64,000 nucleotides of DNA from Janthinobacterium sp. UMAB-56 (lineage in GTDB: Bacteria > Pseudomonadota > Gammaproteobacteria > Burkholderiales > Burkholderiaceae_D): NCBI RefSeq assembly GCF_900095265.1, contig NZ_LT607654.1, forward strand, positions 8,110-72,109, written 5' to 3'. The position numbers were made by a program, and so were the translations under genes. The notes beneath the pieces are model-generated. The model did not search any database. It worked only from the letters and a program-made list of their open reading frames with translations, and had not been told where the DNA came from. This document shows positions 8,485 through 61,479 of the stretch, in pieces; the first letter of the stretch is position 1; every line of letters starts with the position of its first letter.

Positions 8485-9843
8485 CTACGGCAGGGTCTTC
8501 AGCACCGTCTTGGTTGGCACGGAGAAGTTATAACCATCGTGGCGGTCCCAGTTGATCGACCACGTCATCACGCCGCGGAAGTCCGGGTAGGCCTGCTGCG
8601 GCTTGATGGTGCCGCAGTTGAGCAGGCGCGTCAGGCAATTCAGGGCGTTGCTGACGTCGGCATTCGTCGTAAAGCCCGAGCCGGCCGAGCTGCGGCCCGA
8701 TGGCACGCCAAAGCCCACCTGATCCGGGCGCAGGCCGGCGAAGGTGTTGCCGCCATAATTAAACCCTTCGATCAGCATGCGTGCCGTGGCCACCAACTGG
8801 TCTGCCGAGCCGGCCTTGATGGCCCCCGTGGCGTAGGGTGTATAGATATCGCCATTGTTGTAATACTGCGGATGCAGCACCGTCAACTCGGAGCGCAAAG
8901 CGTTGATGATGGGAATATAGGCGCCCCAGATGCTGCCATAGCTCGTGTATCCCCCTTCCACATACACCCATTCCGGCGCCATCGACAGGTAAAAGCCGTT
9001 GCCAACCTTGGTTTTCAGGTTTTTCACGGCGATCGGCAAATAGGTCTGGATAGCCGCGCCTTGCGCCACGCCATTTTCCAGGTCAAGGTCGATGCCGTCG
9101 AAACCGTATTTCGTGATAATGGCGTACAGGCTGTTGGTGAAATTCGTCGCCTCGGCCGTGTTGCCGACGGAAACGGAGCCGTTTTGCCCGCCCAGCGACA
9201 GGATGACTTTCTTGCCTTTCGCCCGCTTGGCGGCCACGTCGGCGATGAACTGCGCCTCCGTGCCCGCGCCCGGATCGATGGTCAGGCTGACATTGCCGCC
9301 GCCCGCGTTGTCGCCGAACGAGACGACGATCACATCCCAGTCATCGCTGACCTGGCTGATCGGATAGGTGGCGCCGCTGGGGTTGGTGAAATTGTGCCAG
9401 TAGCCGATCAGCGCGTGCTTTGCCAATCCCGTGGGCGTTGGTGTCGGTGTCGGCGTTGGTGTCGGTGTCGGTGTCGGTGTCGGCGTTGGCGTCGGGGTGG
9501 GAGTCGGCGTAGGTGTTGGGGTGGGCGTCGGGGTAGGAGTCGGCGTGCCGCAGTCTCCCACTGCCGTCCAGGGCTGGCCACTGCCGGCGCCGCCGCTGCT
9601 GGTCGACGGGTTATTGCCTTGCGTCCACCAGTTGGCCGTGTAATTGACGTTGTTGTAGCTGGCCTTGCCGCCACCGTTGTAGGCGGTGCCGCTATTCCAC
9701 GGCATGTAGCAGGCCACTGCTGTGGTTGCGCCGGCCAGCAGCTGGCTCGCGCCTGCGCCAGATCCGTCGCCGCTGCCACCACAGGCGGCCAGCGTACAGC
9801 CGAAGAGGGTAAGGATGAGGGTATTCATGACTGTCCGGTTCAC
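8485..9843 (-). CDS. Secreted GH18 chitinase, lipoprotein
   Basis: About 452 residues. A lipoprotein signal peptide ends in the lipobox LAAC; then comes a chitin-binding module of the CBM5/12 kind (YNGGGKASYNNVNYTANWWTQG), a linker of roughly 19 Thr-Pro repeats (about 9430-9546), and a GH18 barrel with the catalytic signature DGIDLDLEN, whose Glu is the acid/base. It hydrolyses beta-1,4-GlcNAc polymers outside the cell. The start I prefer is GTG at 9843, six bases after AAGGAG; ATGs at 9849 and 9870 are in frame. It converges on the TetR gene. Confidence 0.9.
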   Translation of the reverse strand: MNRTVMNTLILTLFGCTLAACGGSGDGSGAGASQLLAGATTAVACYMPWNSGTAYNGGGKASYNNVNYTANWWTQGNNPSTSSGGAGSGQPWTAVGDCGTPTPTPTPTPTPTPTPTPTPTPTPTPTPTPTPTPTPTPTGLAKHALIGYWHNFTNPSGATYPISQVSDDWDVIVVSFGDNAGGGNVSLTIDPGAGTEAQFIADVAAKRAKGKKVILSLGGQNGSVSVGNTAEATNFTNSLYAIITKYGFDGIDLDLENGVAQGAAIQTYLPIAVKNLKTKVGNGFYLSMAPEWVYVEGGYTSYGSIWGAYIPIINALRSELTVLHPQYYNNGDIYTPYATGAIKAGSADQLVATARMLIEGFNYGGNTFAGLRPDQVGFGVPSGRSSAGSGFTTNADVSNALNCLTRLLNCGTIKPQQAYPDFRGVMTWSINWDRHDGYNFSVPTKTVLKTLP

Positions 9844-10051
9844 TTGCATCTCCTTGTCTATTTTTTTCATGGCCGGCCGGCTGGACACCGTCCGATTTTT
9901 CAGAGTGCAAGCATTGCAGGTGGTAGTCAACTGGTTTTATTCTTTGCGCAAGCCAACAATACCAGTTTCGGCATTAGCCCATCAATCAAGCGTTGCGGGC
10001 CATACCAGTTTCAATTTTGCCGTGTGCTGGTATGGTGCCGGGAGCAGGGCG

Positions 10052-10214: not shown

Positions 10215-10856
10215 ATGATGAAAAAGATATTGATACTGGGCGCAGGCGGACAGGTAGCGCAGTGGGTCATCCGCACCTTCGCGGGCCGTGACAACATCGC
10301 CTTGACGCTGTTGTTGCGCAATCCCGGCAAGCTGCCCACGCCAGTCCCGTCCAACGGTACCGTGCTGCCTGGCGACGTACTGGACCAATCAATGCTGCGG
10401 CAAATGATGCCCGGACACGACCTGGTCTACGCCAATCTGGTGGGCGACGACATGGAAGATCAGGCCAACAGCATCATTGCCGCCATGCGGGCTTCCGGTG
10501 TCGAGCGCCTGGTTTTCGTGCTATCGATGGGCATCTACGATGAAGTGCCCGGCAAATTCGGCGAGTGGAACAACGCCAGGCTGGCGGAACACCTGAAACC
10601 ATTCCGCCGCGCCGCCGACGCCATCGAGGCGTCGGGCCTGGCATACACCATCGTGCGTCCAGCCTGGATGACGGACGAAGACGAAGTCGACTACGAACTG
10701 ACGACGCGCCACGCGCCATTCAAAGGTACCGTAGTGTCGCGCAGGAGCGTGGCAGACCTGATCGCCAGCATCATCGAAGCGCCACACTTGCACCAGCACG
10801 CCAACCTGGGCGTAAACAAACCGAACACGGACGGGGACAAGCCGTATTTCATGTAA
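10215..10856 (+). CDS. NAD(P)-binding Rossmann protein (atypical SDR, NmrA-like)
   Basis: 213 residues with a glycine-rich nucleotide motif at the N terminus (KKILILGAGGQVAQWVI) and the usual pattern of NAD(P)H-binding flavin-reductase-like or NmrA-like SDRs (VERLVFVLSMGIYDE, YTIVRPAWMTD). No classical YxxxK pair is obvious, so it may be a redox-sensing or non-classical reductase. ATG 10215 and ATG 10218 are both possible, with GAAAGCGAG upstream; the frame is open back to 9993 but that stretch lacks coding character. It is the last gene before the dif-like site. Confidence 0.8.
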   Translation: MMKKILILGAGGQVAQWVIRTFAGRDNIALTLLLRNPGKLPTPVPSNGTVLPGDVLDQSMLRQMMPGHDLVYANLVGDDMEDQANSIIAAMRASGVERLVFVLSMGIYDEVPGKFGEWNNARLAEHLKPFRRAADAIEASGLAYTIVRPAWMTDEDEVDYELTTRHAPFKGTVVSRRSVADLIASIIEAPHLHQHANLGVNKPNTDGDKPYFM

Positions 10857-10944: not shown

Positions 10945-10972
10945 ACTTCGCATAATTTATATTATGTCAAAT
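10945..10972 (+). other. dif: dif-like XerC/XerD recombination site
   Basis: XerC arm ACTTCGCATAA (10945-10955), central hexamer TTTATA (10956-10961), XerD arm TTATGTCAAAT (10962-10972). Against the E. coli dif site the arms match 8/11 and 10/11 and the centre 5/6, 23 of 28 overall, with exact spacing. The central CATAAT-TTAT-ATTATG dyad is perfect. It is intergenic, at the edge of an AT-rich island. Confidence 0.85.
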
Positions 10973-11076
10973 TGAGGGCGGAGGTTAGCAGTACTTCTAG
11001 TTATCCAGATAGCCAGTCAATTCGATCAAAATACCATCGACTGGCGCGTTCACATTCACATCAATCCAAGCAATAT

Positions 11077-12789
11077 CTACGGCGGCGTGCCACTATTCGG
11101 CGCTACAGGATCGAGTTCAAGATAGACATATTGCGGTTCACGTCTCAACCCTTCGGCCAGATATGTTTTAACAATTCTCTTGTGGTCCGGATCGTAAGTT
11201 ATCCCTCCCATCAGACATGCTTCACCTACCCTAAAGTTATAGTTGTGAAGCTCAATATAGTATTTTTTGGTCCATGCAAGGACTACTTTTTGAAGAGCGC
11301 GACTCGATTTTCCTTGATTGTCATTCCTCTCCTTCAAGCCCATTACGTTAAGACAGAATCCCAGAATTCTTGCTCCTTGAAAGTTTGCAAATTTATTCAT
11401 TCTCAAGATTTCTTCATAGAGAAGCCTGCGAGCCTTAAATTGCACTATCCGTCCAGCATGATTAGCTAGCCTGGTCGAACCGAAGATATTAGTCCAGACG
11501 GTGTTGTGTTGGACTAACCAGCACTCCCAAACGGGAGTTGCAACCGAAGAAGCCGCAAGTACTACCTCAAAAATCATACTCGCGAGATGATCGTAAAGAC
11601 TCTCGTTATATGGCTGGTTCCCTCTAACGCGTAAATATCGGCGATCAGGAACATCTTTCTCCTCTAGAATATTAACCGCATCATTAATAAAATCTACGAC
11701 GACACGCAACTGCGCCATAGCGTCGTTATCCCAGGAAATATTCGGCACTCCGTTTAGTTTGTAGATTTCAGCGCCAACATTCTCGATATTCTTCATGGCT
11801 CGATACAGGGTAAAAGAGTGCCCAACAGACCCTGCTTCGACAAAACTGCGGAAAGCCATTAGCACAATCCTGCTGTAAGCTCCCCATTGTGAAGCGTCCC
11901 ACTTCGAGCTGCTTGGGAACGCTGGATCTAGCATGGTGTCGACTACCTCGATCATGTGATAATTCGAAAACATCGCTTGGCTAAGTGGTTTATGGTAACC
12001 CATTAGACCCGATTCGTATCCCTCTGCTTCGTGAAATAGAAAGGAGTTTTTATTCAAAATTGCCTCGTTAACGATGTTTCTCGCAAAAATACCCAATTGA
12101 ATATCGTACTTTTCCGCAAAACTCATTTCCTGAAATATGGCCATCAACGTCCCAGGTGACGATTCGACAATAACCCTACACAGTCTTTTGTCTGCAATCA
12201 ATAACAAAAGATCATTCGCATACCTCGCCACCTTTGGTGGAATCCTCTTTTTTTCGTCCGATTGTGAGCGGTATCTACTAAGTGTGATGGAATCGCACGC
12301 ATGATGCACAATAGATTTAACCGAGTAGGTCAATTCGTCGGCGATTACCGCCAAATCATTTGAAGATCCCTTAAGAACAAAGTGATACAGTGTTTTCGCA
12401 TATCGTTCGGCGTTAAATCTGCTATATGTTGAAGGCTGAATGAACGCGAACCATGCCCAAGCAAGAAATGTTAAGAGAAACAGTGCGCCAAGAAGTGCTT
12501 GCCATGACGCTGGCGTAAGCAATGTCCCGTGTGGCACCAGCCATTGCTCCGCACGCCAGAGATCGGTAAGAAGGGTAAGAACCCCTACTCCGGCTACAAC
12601 AGAGAACGTCACACTCTGGAGAGGTATGGGTGCTGTCCGGACTCGGAATTGATAGCGAACGTCCGCAATGGTCCATGCGAGCACCATTAGGGCAAGGGCC
12701 GCGAGGAATTCCGAGAACCCGAAAAACTTCTGTCCACTGGCATCGAGCGGGATAAAACATACGAATCCAAAACAAGTCTCGACAGTCAC
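11077..12789 (-). CDS. Membrane-anchored protein of unknown function, AT-rich island
   Basis: 570 residues, not recognised. The first 130 residues hold three hydrophobic segments (SEFLAALALMVLAWTIADV, SVVAGVGVLTLLTDLW, LLGALFLLTFLAWAWFAFI); the remaining 440 residues are predicted cytosolic and mostly helical, with no P-loop, nuclease or protease motif that I can identify. GC content and codon use are clearly lower than the surrounding genes, pointing to horizontal acquisition. It lies just beside the dif-like site with its 3' end toward dif. The start is uncertain; AGGAGACGTAGG precedes the frame start. Defence or other accessory function is possible but unsupported by motif. Confidence 0.75.
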   Translation of the reverse strand: MTVETCFGFVCFIPLDASGQKFFGFSEFLAALALMVLAWTIADVRYQFRVRTAPIPLQSVTFSVVAGVGVLTLLTDLWRAEQWLVPHGTLLTPASWQALLGALFLLTFLAWAWFAFIQPSTYSRFNAERYAKTLYHFVLKGSSNDLAVIADELTYSVKSIVHHACDSITLSRYRSQSDEKKRIPPKVARYANDLLLLIADKRLCRVIVESSPGTLMAIFQEMSFAEKYDIQLGIFARNIVNEAILNKNSFLFHEAEGYESGLMGYHKPLSQAMFSNYHMIEVVDTMLDPAFPSSSKWDASQWGAYSRIVLMAFRSFVEAGSVGHSFTLYRAMKNIENVGAEIYKLNGVPNISWDNDAMAQLRVVVDFINDAVNILEEKDVPDRRYLRVRGNQPYNESLYDHLASMIFEVVLAASSVATPVWECWLVQHNTVWTNIFGSTRLANHAGRIVQFKARRLLYEEILRMNKFANFQGARILGFCLNVMGLKERNDNQGKSSRALQKVVLAWTKKYYIELHNYNFRVGEACLMGGITYDPDHKRIVKTYLAEGLRREPQYVYLELDPVAPNSGTPP

Positions 12790-12979: not shown

Positions 12980-13261
12980 CTATAAATCAAAGTCTCCACG
13001 TTTTGCTCGCTCACAAATTTTATGACACCTAAACTCGTCCTTAAAACATCGTTCACAAATACGTAAACGCAGACAATATCGAGCCTGCTGCACAGCCCAT
13101 TTTGGCACCCCTAGCATGTACATGAAATCACCAAGCATTCTGGTACGGTTGACCGCCCGCCAGTTTGTCCGCCTGGAATTCCGAATAATCCAGTATTGAT
13201 TGCGAAACTCATCCTGGATCTGTTCAAGTATCCGCAGTGAATTATCATCAAAATTTGCCAT
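12980..13261 (-). CDS. Small Cys-rich protein, unknown
   Basis: 93 residues from the ATG at 13261, with GGAGGGACGTG upstream; the frame is open to 13348. The C-terminal part contains five cysteines in the pattern CX5CX2CX6CX3C (about residues 62-82), which could bind zinc. The N-terminal half is charged and helical. It lies 190 bases upstream of the 570-aa membrane protein on the same strand and shares its low GC content, so the two may be one transferred unit. No family recognised. Confidence 0.6.
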   Translation of the reverse strand: MANFDDNSLRILEQIQDEFRNQYWIIRNSRRTNWRAVNRTRMLGDFMYMLGVPKWAVQQARYCLRLRICERCFKDEFRCHKICERAKRGDFDL

Positions 13262-57971: not shown

Positions 57972-58136
57972 CGTGCCATCGAGTGCGATGGCGTCTGGTC
58001 GCGGGGCTTTGAAAGGAGCAGTCTCGCGTGCATATAGTCGCTTATCCCGGTCCCGAAGATCATTATGGCCATCTGGGCAGGTTGGAACACGAGGTGTTAG
58101 TCGTCTCGGCTAACGCCGCGAAAACCGCAGTTCATT
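57972..58136 (+). pseudogene. Frameshifted remnant of a small protein gene
   Basis: One frame encodes ECDGVWSRGFERSSLACI up to a stop; the next frame then encodes HIVAYPGPEDHYGHLGRLEHEVLVV up to the stop at 58136. Together they resemble one small beta-rich protein (G-W-x-GFE-S followed by YGHLG) broken by a shift near 58035. No start is visible in the first frame. Confidence 0.35.
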
Positions 58137-58284
58137 GATGGCAAATCCGGAAAACAGCGATTTCAAGCATTCCATTCGTCCGAATTGACACTCTGTCTTA
58201 AAAACCTCCTGGCGCGTCTGTCTTTTTCTATACTCGTGCCAAGGTTGACGTGACAAGCAATGACTTGAGAGGCAAATAAATAAG

Positions 58285-59028
58285 ATGAATATGCGCGCGA
58301 TAGCGGCTCTTCTGCTGTGCTTATATGGCGCTGCAGTACAGGCCCGGGCGGACACCGCGCCAGCCATGGAACCATCCGCACTGGATGCGGCGGCGTCCGT
58401 TGATGTCAAAGGCATGCGGGACCCGGACTGGAAACCCTACAGTGCCATGCTCAAGGGCGTCAAACGCTACGAAGAAAAGCATGCTCTGGCGCCTGGCGCG
58501 CAGCTGCGCTTCATCCTGCAGCCACGCCATGCCGATGTCGACATGCACGCCATCGCGCTCAGGCTGGAAAGCGACGAGGCGGGTATGCCAATACCGCTGG
58601 GGGAACGCAATATCTTCAGCTTGCCCGTCGAACTGGGCCCTCTGTATGAAAAGGCCGAGCTGACCCTGAACCGCAAGGCGGGGTCGGTCCGGTGGCTTCC
58701 CTACGTCAGGAGTGCCGCGACCAGCGACACGATCCGCCGCCTGGGCGACCTGCGGCTGACCTGCGAAGTCCATTGGGCCATCGACAAGGAGACCTTGCCT
58801 TTTGCGATGCGCACCGCGATGGGCGCTTTGGGTGGGCCGTGCAATTTCGTCTCGCAAAAGGGAACCTACAGCTTTGCCGAAGCGCGGCGCATCGTTGCTG
58901 CGACGATCAGCTTCGACGGAAAAAGCGCGCCCGTACCCTTCAGCGGCTTCTCGTTCACGCCGCCATTGCGGGAGCAGGACTGGAGCGATGACAGTACGAT
59001 CGAACTGACATTCGAAAACGCGAAGTAA
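58285..59028 (+). CDS. Secreted protein of unknown function
   Basis: 247 residues with a signal peptide (MNMRAIAALLLCLYGAAVQARA). The mature protein is beta-rich, with one cysteine pair (C160, C186 region) likely to form a disulfide in the periplasm (LTCEVHWAIDK, GGPCNFVSQ). No recognised family. It is 224 bases upstream of the diguanylate cyclase, in the same direction, but a separate promoter is likely. Confidence 0.7.
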   Translation: MNMRAIAALLLCLYGAAVQARADTAPAMEPSALDAAASVDVKGMRDPDWKPYSAMLKGVKRYEEKHALAPGAQLRFILQPRHADVDMHAIALRLESDEAGMPIPLGERNIFSLPVELGPLYEKAELTLNRKAGSVRWLPYVRSAATSDTIRRLGDLRLTCEVHWAIDKETLPFAMRTAMGALGGPCNFVSQKGTYSFAEARRIVAATISFDGKSAPVPFSGFSFTPPLREQDWSDDSTIELTFENAK

Positions 59029-59217
59029 GGCAATGTATTCCTGGCGGCATGGCATCAACTCGCGTGCCATCGGCCTTTTCATCTGCAAAATAGCGAATGC
59101 GCGTCAGGCGACGGCGGGCTTGATATATCGGACTTTGATGTTGGCGATGGTGTTTATTACCAACTAAATATTTTCTCGTTACGATGTGTGAATATCGGAT
59201 GCGCTATTTAGTGCAAA

Positions 59218-59241
59218 CTCCTGTACATATAAAATCAGGAG
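59218..59241 (+). promoter_or_regulatory. Hairpin covering the diguanylate cyclase ribosome site
   Basis: CTCCTG (59218-59223) pairs with CAGGAG (59236-59241) around a 12-base AT-rich loop. CAGGAG is the Shine-Dalgarno of the gene at 59249. Confidence 0.45.
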
Positions 59242-59248
59242 CTAGTCC

Positions 59249-60853
59249 ATGGCCCGTACAAACAGTCTGCCCGCGCGTCTGTTGGACTCAAGCTTCCAGC
59301 GCTTTTCCTTGTTGCCGCTGATGATCACCTTCGTCGTCTTGGTTTGCCTGTCGATTCTTGCGACTCAATTCTGGATGAGCTTGCGCGCAAGAGAGGTGCA
59401 ACTGAGTGAAGGTGCAGCGGCGAGCGCCAACCTGGCTCAGTCCGTTGCTCAGCACGCATACGACACGATCAAGGAGGCCGACACCTTGCTGGTTGGGCTG
59501 GTTGAGCGCATAGAAACGGACGGCGTCTCAAATCTGGAGCTTTCGCGTATTCATAAATTGCTCGTTACACGCGTGAGCGAGTTGCCGCAGTTGCATGGGA
59601 TATTCATCTATGCAAAGGATGGCAGTTGGCTGGTCAATTCCCAGGATGTTCTTTTGAAGAATCTGAATAATTCGGATAGAGATTACTTCAAATACCATCA
59701 ATATAATAGTGATCGCGGCCCGCATATAGGGCCGCCTGTGCGTAGCAGATCAACAGGCACCTGGATTATTACGGTGTCGCGCCGGATCAATCTTCCCGAC
59801 GGGAGTTTCGGCGGGGTTGCTCTTGCAACAATTGATATGCAATATTTTAAGTATTATTACAATAAGTTTTCCATAGGCGATCAGGGTGCTATTTTCATTG
59901 CCAATAGCAATGGTGTACTTTTATTGAGAAGACCATTTGATGAAAAGGCCCTGGGAAAGGACATATCAAAGTTGCCCGTATTTGATATCTATTTACCCAA
60001 GGGACCGACTGGAACGGCTGTCATAAAATCGGGTCAGGATGGTGTGACACGAATTAATAGTTATAGAAGAATCGATAAGTATCCATTGGTGGTTTCTGCC
60101 GCGCTGGCAAAAGATGAGGTTTTAGCAAATTGGCGCGCTGATGCCTATTTCCATTTTATGGTAGGCGGGATGTTGGTAGTGCTCATTGCCTTTCTAGGCT
60201 ATCGTATGGTGAGACAGATCAATCGCCAATCGCAAGCTGAACAAGAACTCATACTCGCCGGCATTGAATTGGAAGGAATAAATGAAACTTTGTCGCGACT
60301 TGCGAGCCAGGATGGACTGACAGGACTCGCGAATCGGCGTCATTTTGATGAATCACTGATGGGCGAGTTTAATCGCGCGCGGCGCGGCGAAAGCTTGCTA
60401 GGATTAGTGATGATTGATGTTGATTATTTTAAGCAGTATAACGATATCTATGGTCATGTAGCCGGCGACGAGTGCTTAAGAAAAATTGGCAAGGTGGTGA
60501 CCTACAGCATGCGCAGGCCTGGGGATCTTGCAGCTCGCTACGGCGGTGAAGAGATGGTGGTTTTACTGCCAGGAACCGATCTCGCCGGTACATTGGCCGT
60601 TGCAGAGAATATTCGTTTAGCCATTCAATCTTTGGAGATTGAACACGCCGGAAATCCTCTTGGTGTTGTGACAGTAAGTATCGGCGTCGAAGCCTTTTCT
60701 CCAATTCACCTGGAAAACCAAGCGATTGAGCTGGTCGAGGCCGCTGACAAAGCCTTGTACAAAGCGAAAGAGTCTGGACGAAATCAGGTTTGCCATGCCT
60801 TTTCTTGCCAGGCAGAGACAATGAGAGAAAGCCTCCCGGCTTTGCATGGATAA
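59249..60853 (+). CDS. Membrane diguanylate cyclase with extracytoplasmic sensor
   Basis: 534 residues. An N-terminal helix (about 22-42), a dCache-type periplasmic sensor of about 240 residues, a second helix (about 300-325), then a GGDEF domain with RYGGEEMVVLLPG (the GGEEM active-site variant). DGLTGLANRRHFDE marks the domain start. It makes cyclic-di-GMP from two GTP. The gene is more AT-rich than its neighbours and uses unlike codons. No I-site RxxD directly before GGEEM was seen. Confidence 0.92.
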   Translation: MARTNSLPARLLDSSFQRFSLLPLMITFVVLVCLSILATQFWMSLRAREVQLSEGAAASANLAQSVAQHAYDTIKEADTLLVGLVERIETDGVSNLELSRIHKLLVTRVSELPQLHGIFIYAKDGSWLVNSQDVLLKNLNNSDRDYFKYHQYNSDRGPHIGPPVRSRSTGTWIITVSRRINLPDGSFGGVALATIDMQYFKYYYNKFSIGDQGAIFIANSNGVLLLRRPFDEKALGKDISKLPVFDIYLPKGPTGTAVIKSGQDGVTRINSYRRIDKYPLVVSAALAKDEVLANWRADAYFHFMVGGMLVVLIAFLGYRMVRQINRQSQAEQELILAGIELEGINETLSRLASQDGLTGLANRRHFDESLMGEFNRARRGESLLGLVMIDVDYFKQYNDIYGHVAGDECLRKIGKVVTYSMRRPGDLAARYGGEEMVVLLPGTDLAGTLAVAENIRLAIQSLEIEHAGNPLGVVTVSIGVEAFSPIHLENQAIELVEAADKALYKAKESGRNQVCHAFSCQAETMRESLPALHG

Positions 60854-60942
60854 CCTTGTCATCAACTGTACGGCGTCGCTCAGTTCGCCGAGCGTTGTTT
60901 CACACCCTTGACCGACCAGGGTTTTCGACCTGCCGCTGAGAC

Positions 60943-61479
60943 TCATTTGACCCGCTGCTTCTCCAGCTTGCGCGCCAGGGTGCGCCGGTGCATGCCCAGG
61001 CGGCGGGCAGTTTCCGAGATATTGAAATCCGTCTCGGCCAGCATTTCGTGGATGCGTTCCCATTCCAGGGTCTTGATGTTGGTGGCGCGGTTGCTCAGTT
61101 CGATGTCGGCGTTGCCGGCCACGTGGCCGAAGGCCGCTTCGATGTCGTCCGTGTTCGACGGTTTCGCCAGGTACTGGCAGGCGCCCAGCTTGATCGCTTC
61201 GACGGCCGTGCCGATACTGGCGTAGCCGGTCAGCACGACAATCAGCATTTCCGGGTCGTGCTGGTGCAGCATCTGCACGCAAGCCAGGCCGGACGTATTG
61301 CCATTGAGCTTCAAATCGACGACGGCGAAGTCGGGACAATGCTGTTCCAGCAAGGCGCTCGCTTCATCGAAATTGGTGGCCAGCAGGACTTGGTAGCCGC
61401 GCCGTTCGAACGAGCGGCCCAGGGTGCGGGCAAACGCGGCGTCGTCTTCCACGATCAGTAACAGACGGTCATCCTGCAT
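60943..61479 (-). CDS. regA: RegA/ActR-type response regulator
   Basis: 178 residues: receiver domain with phospho-acceptor D55 (FAVVDLKLNG), then a short Fis-type helix-turn-helix (ISETARRLGMHRRTLARKLEK) with the conserved end. This is the PrrA/RegA/ActR/RoxR pattern. It overlaps the sensor kinase gene. RegBA-type systems respond to respiratory redox state and control terminal oxidases; here cyo genes and SURF1 lie next to it. Confidence 0.93.
   Translation of the reverse strand: MQDDRLLLIVEDDAAFARTLGRSFERRGYQVLLATNFDEASALLEQHCPDFAVVDLKLNGNTSGLACVQMLHQHDPEMLIVVLTGYASIGTAVEAIKLGACQYLAKPSNTDDIEAAFGHVAGNADIELSNRATNIKTLEWERIHEMLAETDFNISETARRLGMHRRTLARKLEKQRVK

Follow-up and report, generated by a model that had tools for sequence, protein, structure and literature searches.

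The window analysed here is a stretch of 64,000 nucleotides from the draft genome of a Janthinobacterium strain (G000:C4:8110-72109). At positions 10945-10972 it holds a 28-bp site with the 11-6-11 layout of a dif site (Table 1). The site agrees with the dif of E. coli at 23 of 28 bases, with 5 mismatches, its XerD arm doing so at 10 of 11, and the inner dyad CATAA/TTATG is perfect. It lies between genes, after the end of a gene for an NAD(P)-binding protein at 10856 and before the next credible gene, on the minus strand at 11077-12789. Shorter mechanical open reading frames run across the site and have no support. The first-pass annotation had listed the same layout, the same agreement with E. 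coli, the perfect dyad and the intergenic position, and re-reading the bases confirmed all of them. On the right, the site directly adjoins the flank that empty dif sites of the genus have, in which the block TACTTTTAGT is found 18-19 bases right of dif at 10 of 40 loci. Farther right follow a low-GC gene for a protein of 570 aa, matching a phage family of unknown function (phrog_25374), a gene for 122 aa, and, about 2.3 kb from dif, a decayed inovirus fragment. No homologue of the 570-aa gene was found around the other 39 dif sites of the genus (in sequence extending at most 13 kb rightward, and less at contig ends), a tblastn search of its protein against phage records gave no match, and neither this gene nor the 122-aa gene obtained anything from PADLOC, NCBIfam or Pfam.

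Table 1. Features at and around the dif site, in window coordinates
Feature	Position	Strand	Basis
Left neighbour, NAD(P)-binding protein (PF13460)	10218..10856	+	Pfam
XerC-binding arm of dif, ACTTCGCATAA	10945..10955	+	sequence comparison
Central hexamer of dif, TTTATA	10956..10961	+	sequence comparison
XerD-binding arm of dif, TTATGTCAAAT	10962..10972	+	10/11 to E. coli
Right flank of empty dif, TGAGGGCGGAGGTTAGCAGTACTTCTAGT...	10973..11005	+	comparison of 40 loci
Accessory gene, 570 aa, low GC	11077..12789	-	phage family phrog_25374 match, 2e-88
Small gene, 122 aa	12980..13348	-	30% over 83 aligned positions to the G005 gene beside the inovirus Rep
Decayed inovirus-type Rep fragment, 48 aa	13286..13429	-	67% identical to the G005 inovirus Rep

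Within the window, the next-best match to the 28-mer has 10 mismatches, its own reverse complement set aside. In the whole genome (6.1 Mb in 82 unordered contigs) the site is the sole match to the dif pattern used, at up to three mismatches, and sites within five mismatches of E. coli dif are expected by chance about 0.0002 times (6.1 Mb, both strands, base composition of 62.5% GC). All 40 genomes of the genus carry TTCGCATAA and the central hexamer at dif, and each of them, the strain's own genome included, has one dif match at up to two mismatches, with zero matches to a reversed control pattern. A looser pattern, allowing three mismatches, gave a second, poorer dif-like match on another contig of one relative, G006; this site, TTCGCATAATTAACATTATGTCAATT at G006:C39:11328-11353, could be that of a plasmid or another element. 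The exact 28-mer occurs in 12 stretches of a species-level genome collection, which come from nine Janthinobacterium isolates, one Janthinobacterium MAG, one Duganella and one Burkholderiales MAG.

The first-pass annotation had held that the window probably spans the replication terminus and had named two tests that could refute the placement, a second, better dif match at the skew shift elsewhere on the same replicon and a skew maximum far away. The genome holds no second match at up to three mismatches, and the cumulative GC-skew maximum of the 506,659-base contig C4 falls at window position 10266, 0.7 kb from dif, so that neither test refutes it. The skew of the strain's own genome was followed over this one contig, with 19 kb of it left of dif, and is +0.0195 left and -0.0203 right of the site. 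The motif GGGNAGGG, which we take to be the KOPS of E. coli and which may not be that of Janthinobacterium, occurs four times forward and never in reverse left of dif, and 8 times forward and 81 times in reverse right of it; 85 of these 93 copies point toward dif. The relative G001, a single contig of 6,313,111 bases with its dif at 3,529,222, was sampled in 20 stretches of 20 kb. Its skew changes sign between the two samples that meet at dif. All ten samples from 0.64 Mb up to dif have positive skew, and of the nine samples after dif, which reach to 5.76 Mb and include the first 20 kb of the contig, eight are negative and the one at 5.12 Mb is +0.005; the sample at 0.32 Mb is negative. With that sample (2:0) excluded, GGGNAGGG counts in G001 are 25 forward and 4 reverse before dif, and 4 and 30 after it.

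The genome also encodes the expected proteins, namely an XerC-type recombinase (329 bits, just below the curated cut-off of 335), XerD (361.6 bits, above the cut-off of 329.6) and two FtsK-gamma domains. The second of these domains (G000:C9:53350-53532) may belong to a mobile element, as a tyrosine recombinase match lies close by at C9:55471. If the site works like that of E. coli, XerC would occupy its left arm and XerD its right arm. FtsK, steered by GGGNAGGG motifs pointing at dif from both sides, would activate XerD there at division, and chromosome dimers would be resolved, as the anatomy of the site suggests. The single match, the neighbouring skew maximum and the polar motifs bear out the earlier placement, and the site is very probably the chromosomal dif at the replication terminus of a Janthinobacterium-type strain. 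Comparison with listed dif sites, also proposed in the first pass, agrees: published beta-proteobacterial sites (Thiobacillus ACTTCGCATAATGT..., Bordetella AATTCGCATAATGTATATTATGTAAAGT; PMC2731167, in excerpt) are nearly identical to that of the window. With E. coli and other beta-proteobacteria it shares the 11-6-11 layout, the conserved XerD arm, the intergenic position, the occurrence once per chromosome and the location at the skew shift (PMC2731167 and PMC3025954, in excerpt); it differs from E. coli dif in 5 of 28 bases, and its TTTATA centre is found in all 40 genus genomes.

About a quarter of proteobacterial dif sites are described as lying beside mobility genes (PMC2731167, in the part available), and several relatives of the strain carry prophages at theirs. 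We oriented all 40 genus loci and read the bases around dif. The exact 17-base half-site made of the central hexamer and the XerD arm, TTTATATTATGTNAAAY, occurs once in 36 of the 40 genomes and twice in four (G005, G006, G008 and, on another contig, G037), and G018 is the only genome with two copies of the exact XerC-plus-central half, TTCGCATAATTTATA. The inovirus of G005 lies between dif and a second half-site, GGTGCAGACTC-TTTATA-TTATGTCAAAT, 8.6 kb right of dif, where GGTGCAGACTC replaces the XerC arm and the native right flank of empty dif follows. The insert has Pfam matches for a filamentous-phage-type Rep (PF23343), a Secretin, a Zot-type assembly ATPase and a helix-turn-helix regulator, and the 3' end of the regulator gene runs into the half-site. 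The second half-sites of G006 and G008 lie 10.7 kb and 11.0 kb right of dif, respectively, and belong to prophages of another kind. That of G008 encodes a coat protein matching PM2 P2 (PF18628, 3.2e-30; PF25513, 2.9e-9), a GPA-type Rep (PF05840, 6.3e-75) and a P-loop protein whose one Pfam match is weak (AAA_22, 0.0053, below the cut-off). The P-loop protein has homologues in G006 and G018, and both the coat and the P-loop proteins of G006 are close homologues of those of G008. G018 shows the mirror order: after the native left flank come the XerC arm, the hexamer TTTATA and, as a degenerate arm, GAGTGTAGTGC; 10.8 kb with the coat and P-loop genes follow, and the full dif stands last. PF18628 is matched in four of the 40 genus genomes, these three and G037, in which coat gene, half-site and dif lie on three separate short contigs. 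Inoviruses of the genus are not generally at dif, since among 16 matches to Zot-type genes (PF05707) in 11 of the 40 genomes the sole one seen near dif is that of G005; the others are on contigs other than that of dif (G006, G007, G014, G021, G025, G026) or far from it (G012, G018, G030, G034).

The first 24 kb of the window were compared with 20 of the 39 other genus loci. The left flank is, in part of the relatives, similar through dif inclusive: similarity spans dif and breaks off no more than one base from its end in five loci (L090, L091, L092, L093, L104), ends within three bases of the dif end in three (L095, L099, L103) and continues for 13-48 bases past dif in three more (L087, L097, L101). 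Five loci (L088, L089, L096, L102, L106) are without a similar left flank, and four (L094, L098, L100, L105) match only farther left and not up to dif. The sequences of L090, L091, L103, L105 and L106 become similar to the window again from about window 12980-13030, at distances from their dif of 1.4 to 11.4 kb. Judged from these alignments, the right side of dif is a hot spot. Two short sequences on this side may be mentioned. The tailless-prophage end sequence GAGTGCAGAATCAA occurs, at up to three mismatches, within the first 60 bp right of dif at 10 of 40 loci; since a coat gene is still present on that side in no genome but G006 and G008, the other eight may be remnants of deleted prophages. 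TTATGTAAAAC, a second XerD-arm-like sequence preceded by TTTTTACGAAA, lies 94 bp right of the dif start in L092 and L093, within the end nearest to dif of the tailless prophages that G006 and G008 carry; Xer might use it as an accessory binding site.

The first-pass annotation had further suggested that accessory DNA can enter here by Xer-mediated integration. For relatives this holds, on the evidence of their junction sequences; in the window itself, where no half-site is left, Xer entry is no more than suggested, by an old inovirus remnant. Homologues of the 122-aa gene and of the Rep remnant occur right of dif at 11 of 40 loci, the window included, and an inovirus therefore probably lay right of dif in an ancestor. 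The accessory DNA of the window could thus have entered by Xer recombination at dif, as an old inovirus with its cargo, and could have lost its far half-site since. The small gene and the Rep remnant stand 2.0-2.5 kb right of dif, and the G005 inovirus, likewise right of dif, lies between two Xer half-sites. However, a second half-site of central hexamer and XerD arm, the expected mark of an IMEX, is absent from the window, and the right flank of empty sites still adjoins dif. We give this history slightly less than an even chance. A sequence near window 13456, TTATTTCAAAT, was considered as a half-site and rejected as too weak, having one mismatch to the XerD arm and lacking a matching central hexamer.

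We searched PF18628 in 294 genomes of the window's family, drawn evenly from a larger group. It gave 20 matches in 19 of the 294 genomes, all 19 above the cut-off, and no match in 14 control genomes; G037, matched in the genus search and not in the family search, was evidently outside the 294. A dif match with up to three mismatches, called by sequence alone, is present in all 19 genomes. In 19 of the 20 cases the coat gene and dif share a contig, separated by 2,980 to 6,198 bp, with a median of 5,098 bp. Chance would put about 0.3% of hits this near dif in a 5-Mb genome, and we give no formal probability because the genomes are not independent. The exception is G149, with its coat gene on C56, no convincing half-site near that gene, and a dif candidate (2 mismatches) on a different contig of 5.7 kb. 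In all 16 cases outside the genus of the window, a second half-site is found on the far side of the coat gene, at 9.1-12.2 kb from dif. Compared with 17 bases of the respective dif, these far half-sites have no mismatch in eight cases, one in four, two in two and three in two; simulated regions of the same first-order make-up gave up to three mismatches in 7 of 640 and up to one in 0 of 640. A second dif-like match in G051 is its half-site. Together with G006, G008 and G018, every one of the 19 tailless elements located on the same contig as dif ends in a half-site. The chromosomal dif is thus likely to be the nearly exclusive home of PM2-like tailless prophages in this family.

The half-sites are of two mirror-image forms. 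In 12 of the 19 elements, which lie left of dif, the XerC side is kept at both ends, within 0-3 mismatches, and the far XerD arm is degenerate; the other seven lie right of dif and retain the XerD side, and their far XerC arm is the degenerate one. The degenerate arms retain a likeness to the proper arm, at 4.75 of 11 bases for XerD arms against 3.13 when shuffled (reached by 1 of 5000 shuffles, n = 12) and at 3.86 against 2.72 for XerC arms (reached by 115 of 5000, n = 7). Each of the 12 left elements has its coat gene on the strand of dif, and each of the seven right ones has it on the other strand. Since the strand of the coat gene switches with the side, the whole element is inverted, and the same phage end would meet the degenerate arm in both forms. 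On a tree of the coat proteins (20 rows, with G149 unlabelled, and with the start codons of G006 and G018 probably too far upstream), polarity requires at least five changes, which is equally the least forced by well-supported branches. Shuffled labels require 5.9 on average, and 157 and 153 of 500 shuffles were as low as five, so that polarity is not clustered and the tree gives no sign of its long inheritance. One genome, G077, has two tailless prophages flanking a single dif (G077:C2, 352894), one of each polarity, and both forms can therefore coexist at one site.

In the 19 tailless elements and the G005 inovirus alike, the junction sequences place the insertion exactly at dif, with the full dif kept and a modified half-site at the far end. 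Such junctions could arise if the attP of these phages, which have no evident integrase, consisted of the central hexamer and one good Xer arm. A single crossover between dif and attP by the host Xer recombinases would then keep dif intact where the good arm lies and produce a crippled half-site at the other end of the prophage, and lysogeny would be stable because the far site has one poor arm. The combined reading, in which the nearly exclusive use of dif reflects phages without an evident integrase that hijack XerC/XerD through a one-arm attP and have switched arms five times or more, with the prophage turned round at every switch, seems to us probable, though with appreciable room for doubt. 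The competing account is that the tailless prophages of the family are placed by an integrase aiming at dif, their own or that of a neighbour, and not by the host XerC/XerD. The tailless prophages of marine Vibrio at dif regularly carry integrase genes, and their authors leave the question open in the part of PMC11630473 available. Here, the left element of G077 gave a weak match to an XerC/XerD profile (E 0.0018), the one such case in 19 elements, and tyrosine-integrase matches lie just outside three elements, some 50 bp past the far half-site of G274 (G274:C32:448012) and about 1.3 kb beyond dif in G255 (G255:C1:1264807) and G279 (G279:C79:279159). Against this, the other 18 elements have no match to that profile at E up to 1, the profile being built from two sequences, the strain's own XerC and XerD, and not sensitive, and among the tyrosine-integrase (PF00589) matches listed for the 19 genomes (to about E 8e-10) none lies inside an element by its coordinates. 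Five of the seven right-side elements were scanned 11 bases too far into the half-site, which left the scan unaffected. We consider placement by such an integrase unlikely.

Our main reading, to which we assign a probability of about 0.95, is that the site is the chromosomal dif, that phages which lack an evident integrase also land there, and that the dif of the window is unoccupied; it carries no such prophage. That the 28-mer is a pseudo-dif, the attachment site of an integrated Xer-exploiting element, is extremely improbable, for although dif sites in the family often abut prophages and accessory DNA lies right of this one, the genome has no other full site, and the 28-mer stands at the skew maximum amid polar motifs, with a left flank that relatives share at their single sites and a right flank like that of empty sites.

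The site of TLC-phi combines a good XerC side and central region with a degenerate XerD side, and that of the gonococcal island is homologous to dif in its XerC side and central region (PMC5357621, in excerpt). The XerC-intact form of the TLC-phi kind of IMEX is that of 12 of our 19 tailless elements, whereas the other seven and the G005 inovirus are mirrored, with a good XerD and a degenerate XerC arm. The presumptive PM2 site quoted in the available part of PMC9966536 looks XerD-intact. Among tailless phages, NO16 of Vibrio is linked to dif and has a double-jelly-roll coat protein and a packaging ATPase (PMC9966536, in excerpt); tailless and filamentous prophages of Vibrio occupy the chromosomal dif, most of the tailless ones using integrases (PMC9966536 and PMC11630473, both in excerpt); and Jorvik of Rhodobacter has a dif-like attachment site and sits in a RuBisCO operon (PMC10589892, in excerpt). 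The elements described here share dif-like attachment sites with all of these, the double-jelly-roll coat with NO16 and the chromosomal dif with the Vibrio prophages. Unlike the Vibrio tailless prophages and Jorvik, they have their hosts in the window's family, are at dif in 19 of 20 cases, contain no evident integrase and use both arm polarities. They are probably of the same kind as clade D of the Vinavirales, prophages mainly of Betaproteobacteria, to which an integration site is added here; a 2022 survey calls the integration mechanisms of Vinavirales prophages other than HGV-2 unclear (PMC9502842, in the part available).

Our literature searches found no paper joining 'Janthinobacterium' and 'dif site', and, within the text that was available, none with both arm polarities in one tailless lineage; nor did we find there in print the near-exclusive use of dif by the PM2-like prophages of this family or the repeated switch of attP polarity. 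The dif of the window is ordinary and by itself a matter of routine annotation, yet it anchors the terminus of a genome that exists in draft form only. What is of interest is the link to tailless prophages. The use of host recombinases by tailless prophages at dif is left open by a 2024 paper (PMC11630473, in the part available), and 19 of 20 cases here are at dif, for the most part with no evident integrase inside the element. If our interpretation is true, a single phage lineage holds IMEX of two mirror-image types, and these should differ in the starting recombinase and in the treatment of the crippled far site by FtsK. The two forms of attachment site lend themselves naturally to a comparison of which recombinase, XerC or XerD, starts integration, and of why the elements escape removal by FtsK-activated recombination.

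Two other parts of the window deserve mention. The gene at 8485-9930, left of dif, is chitinase-like (GH18) and encodes a CBM5/12 module as well as a long (PT)n linker. GC is low a second time, at about 49-53%, over 58001-61000, where the skew has the opposite sign; this stretch includes, at 59249-60853, the gene of a membrane protein that we named by eye as GGDEF-type.
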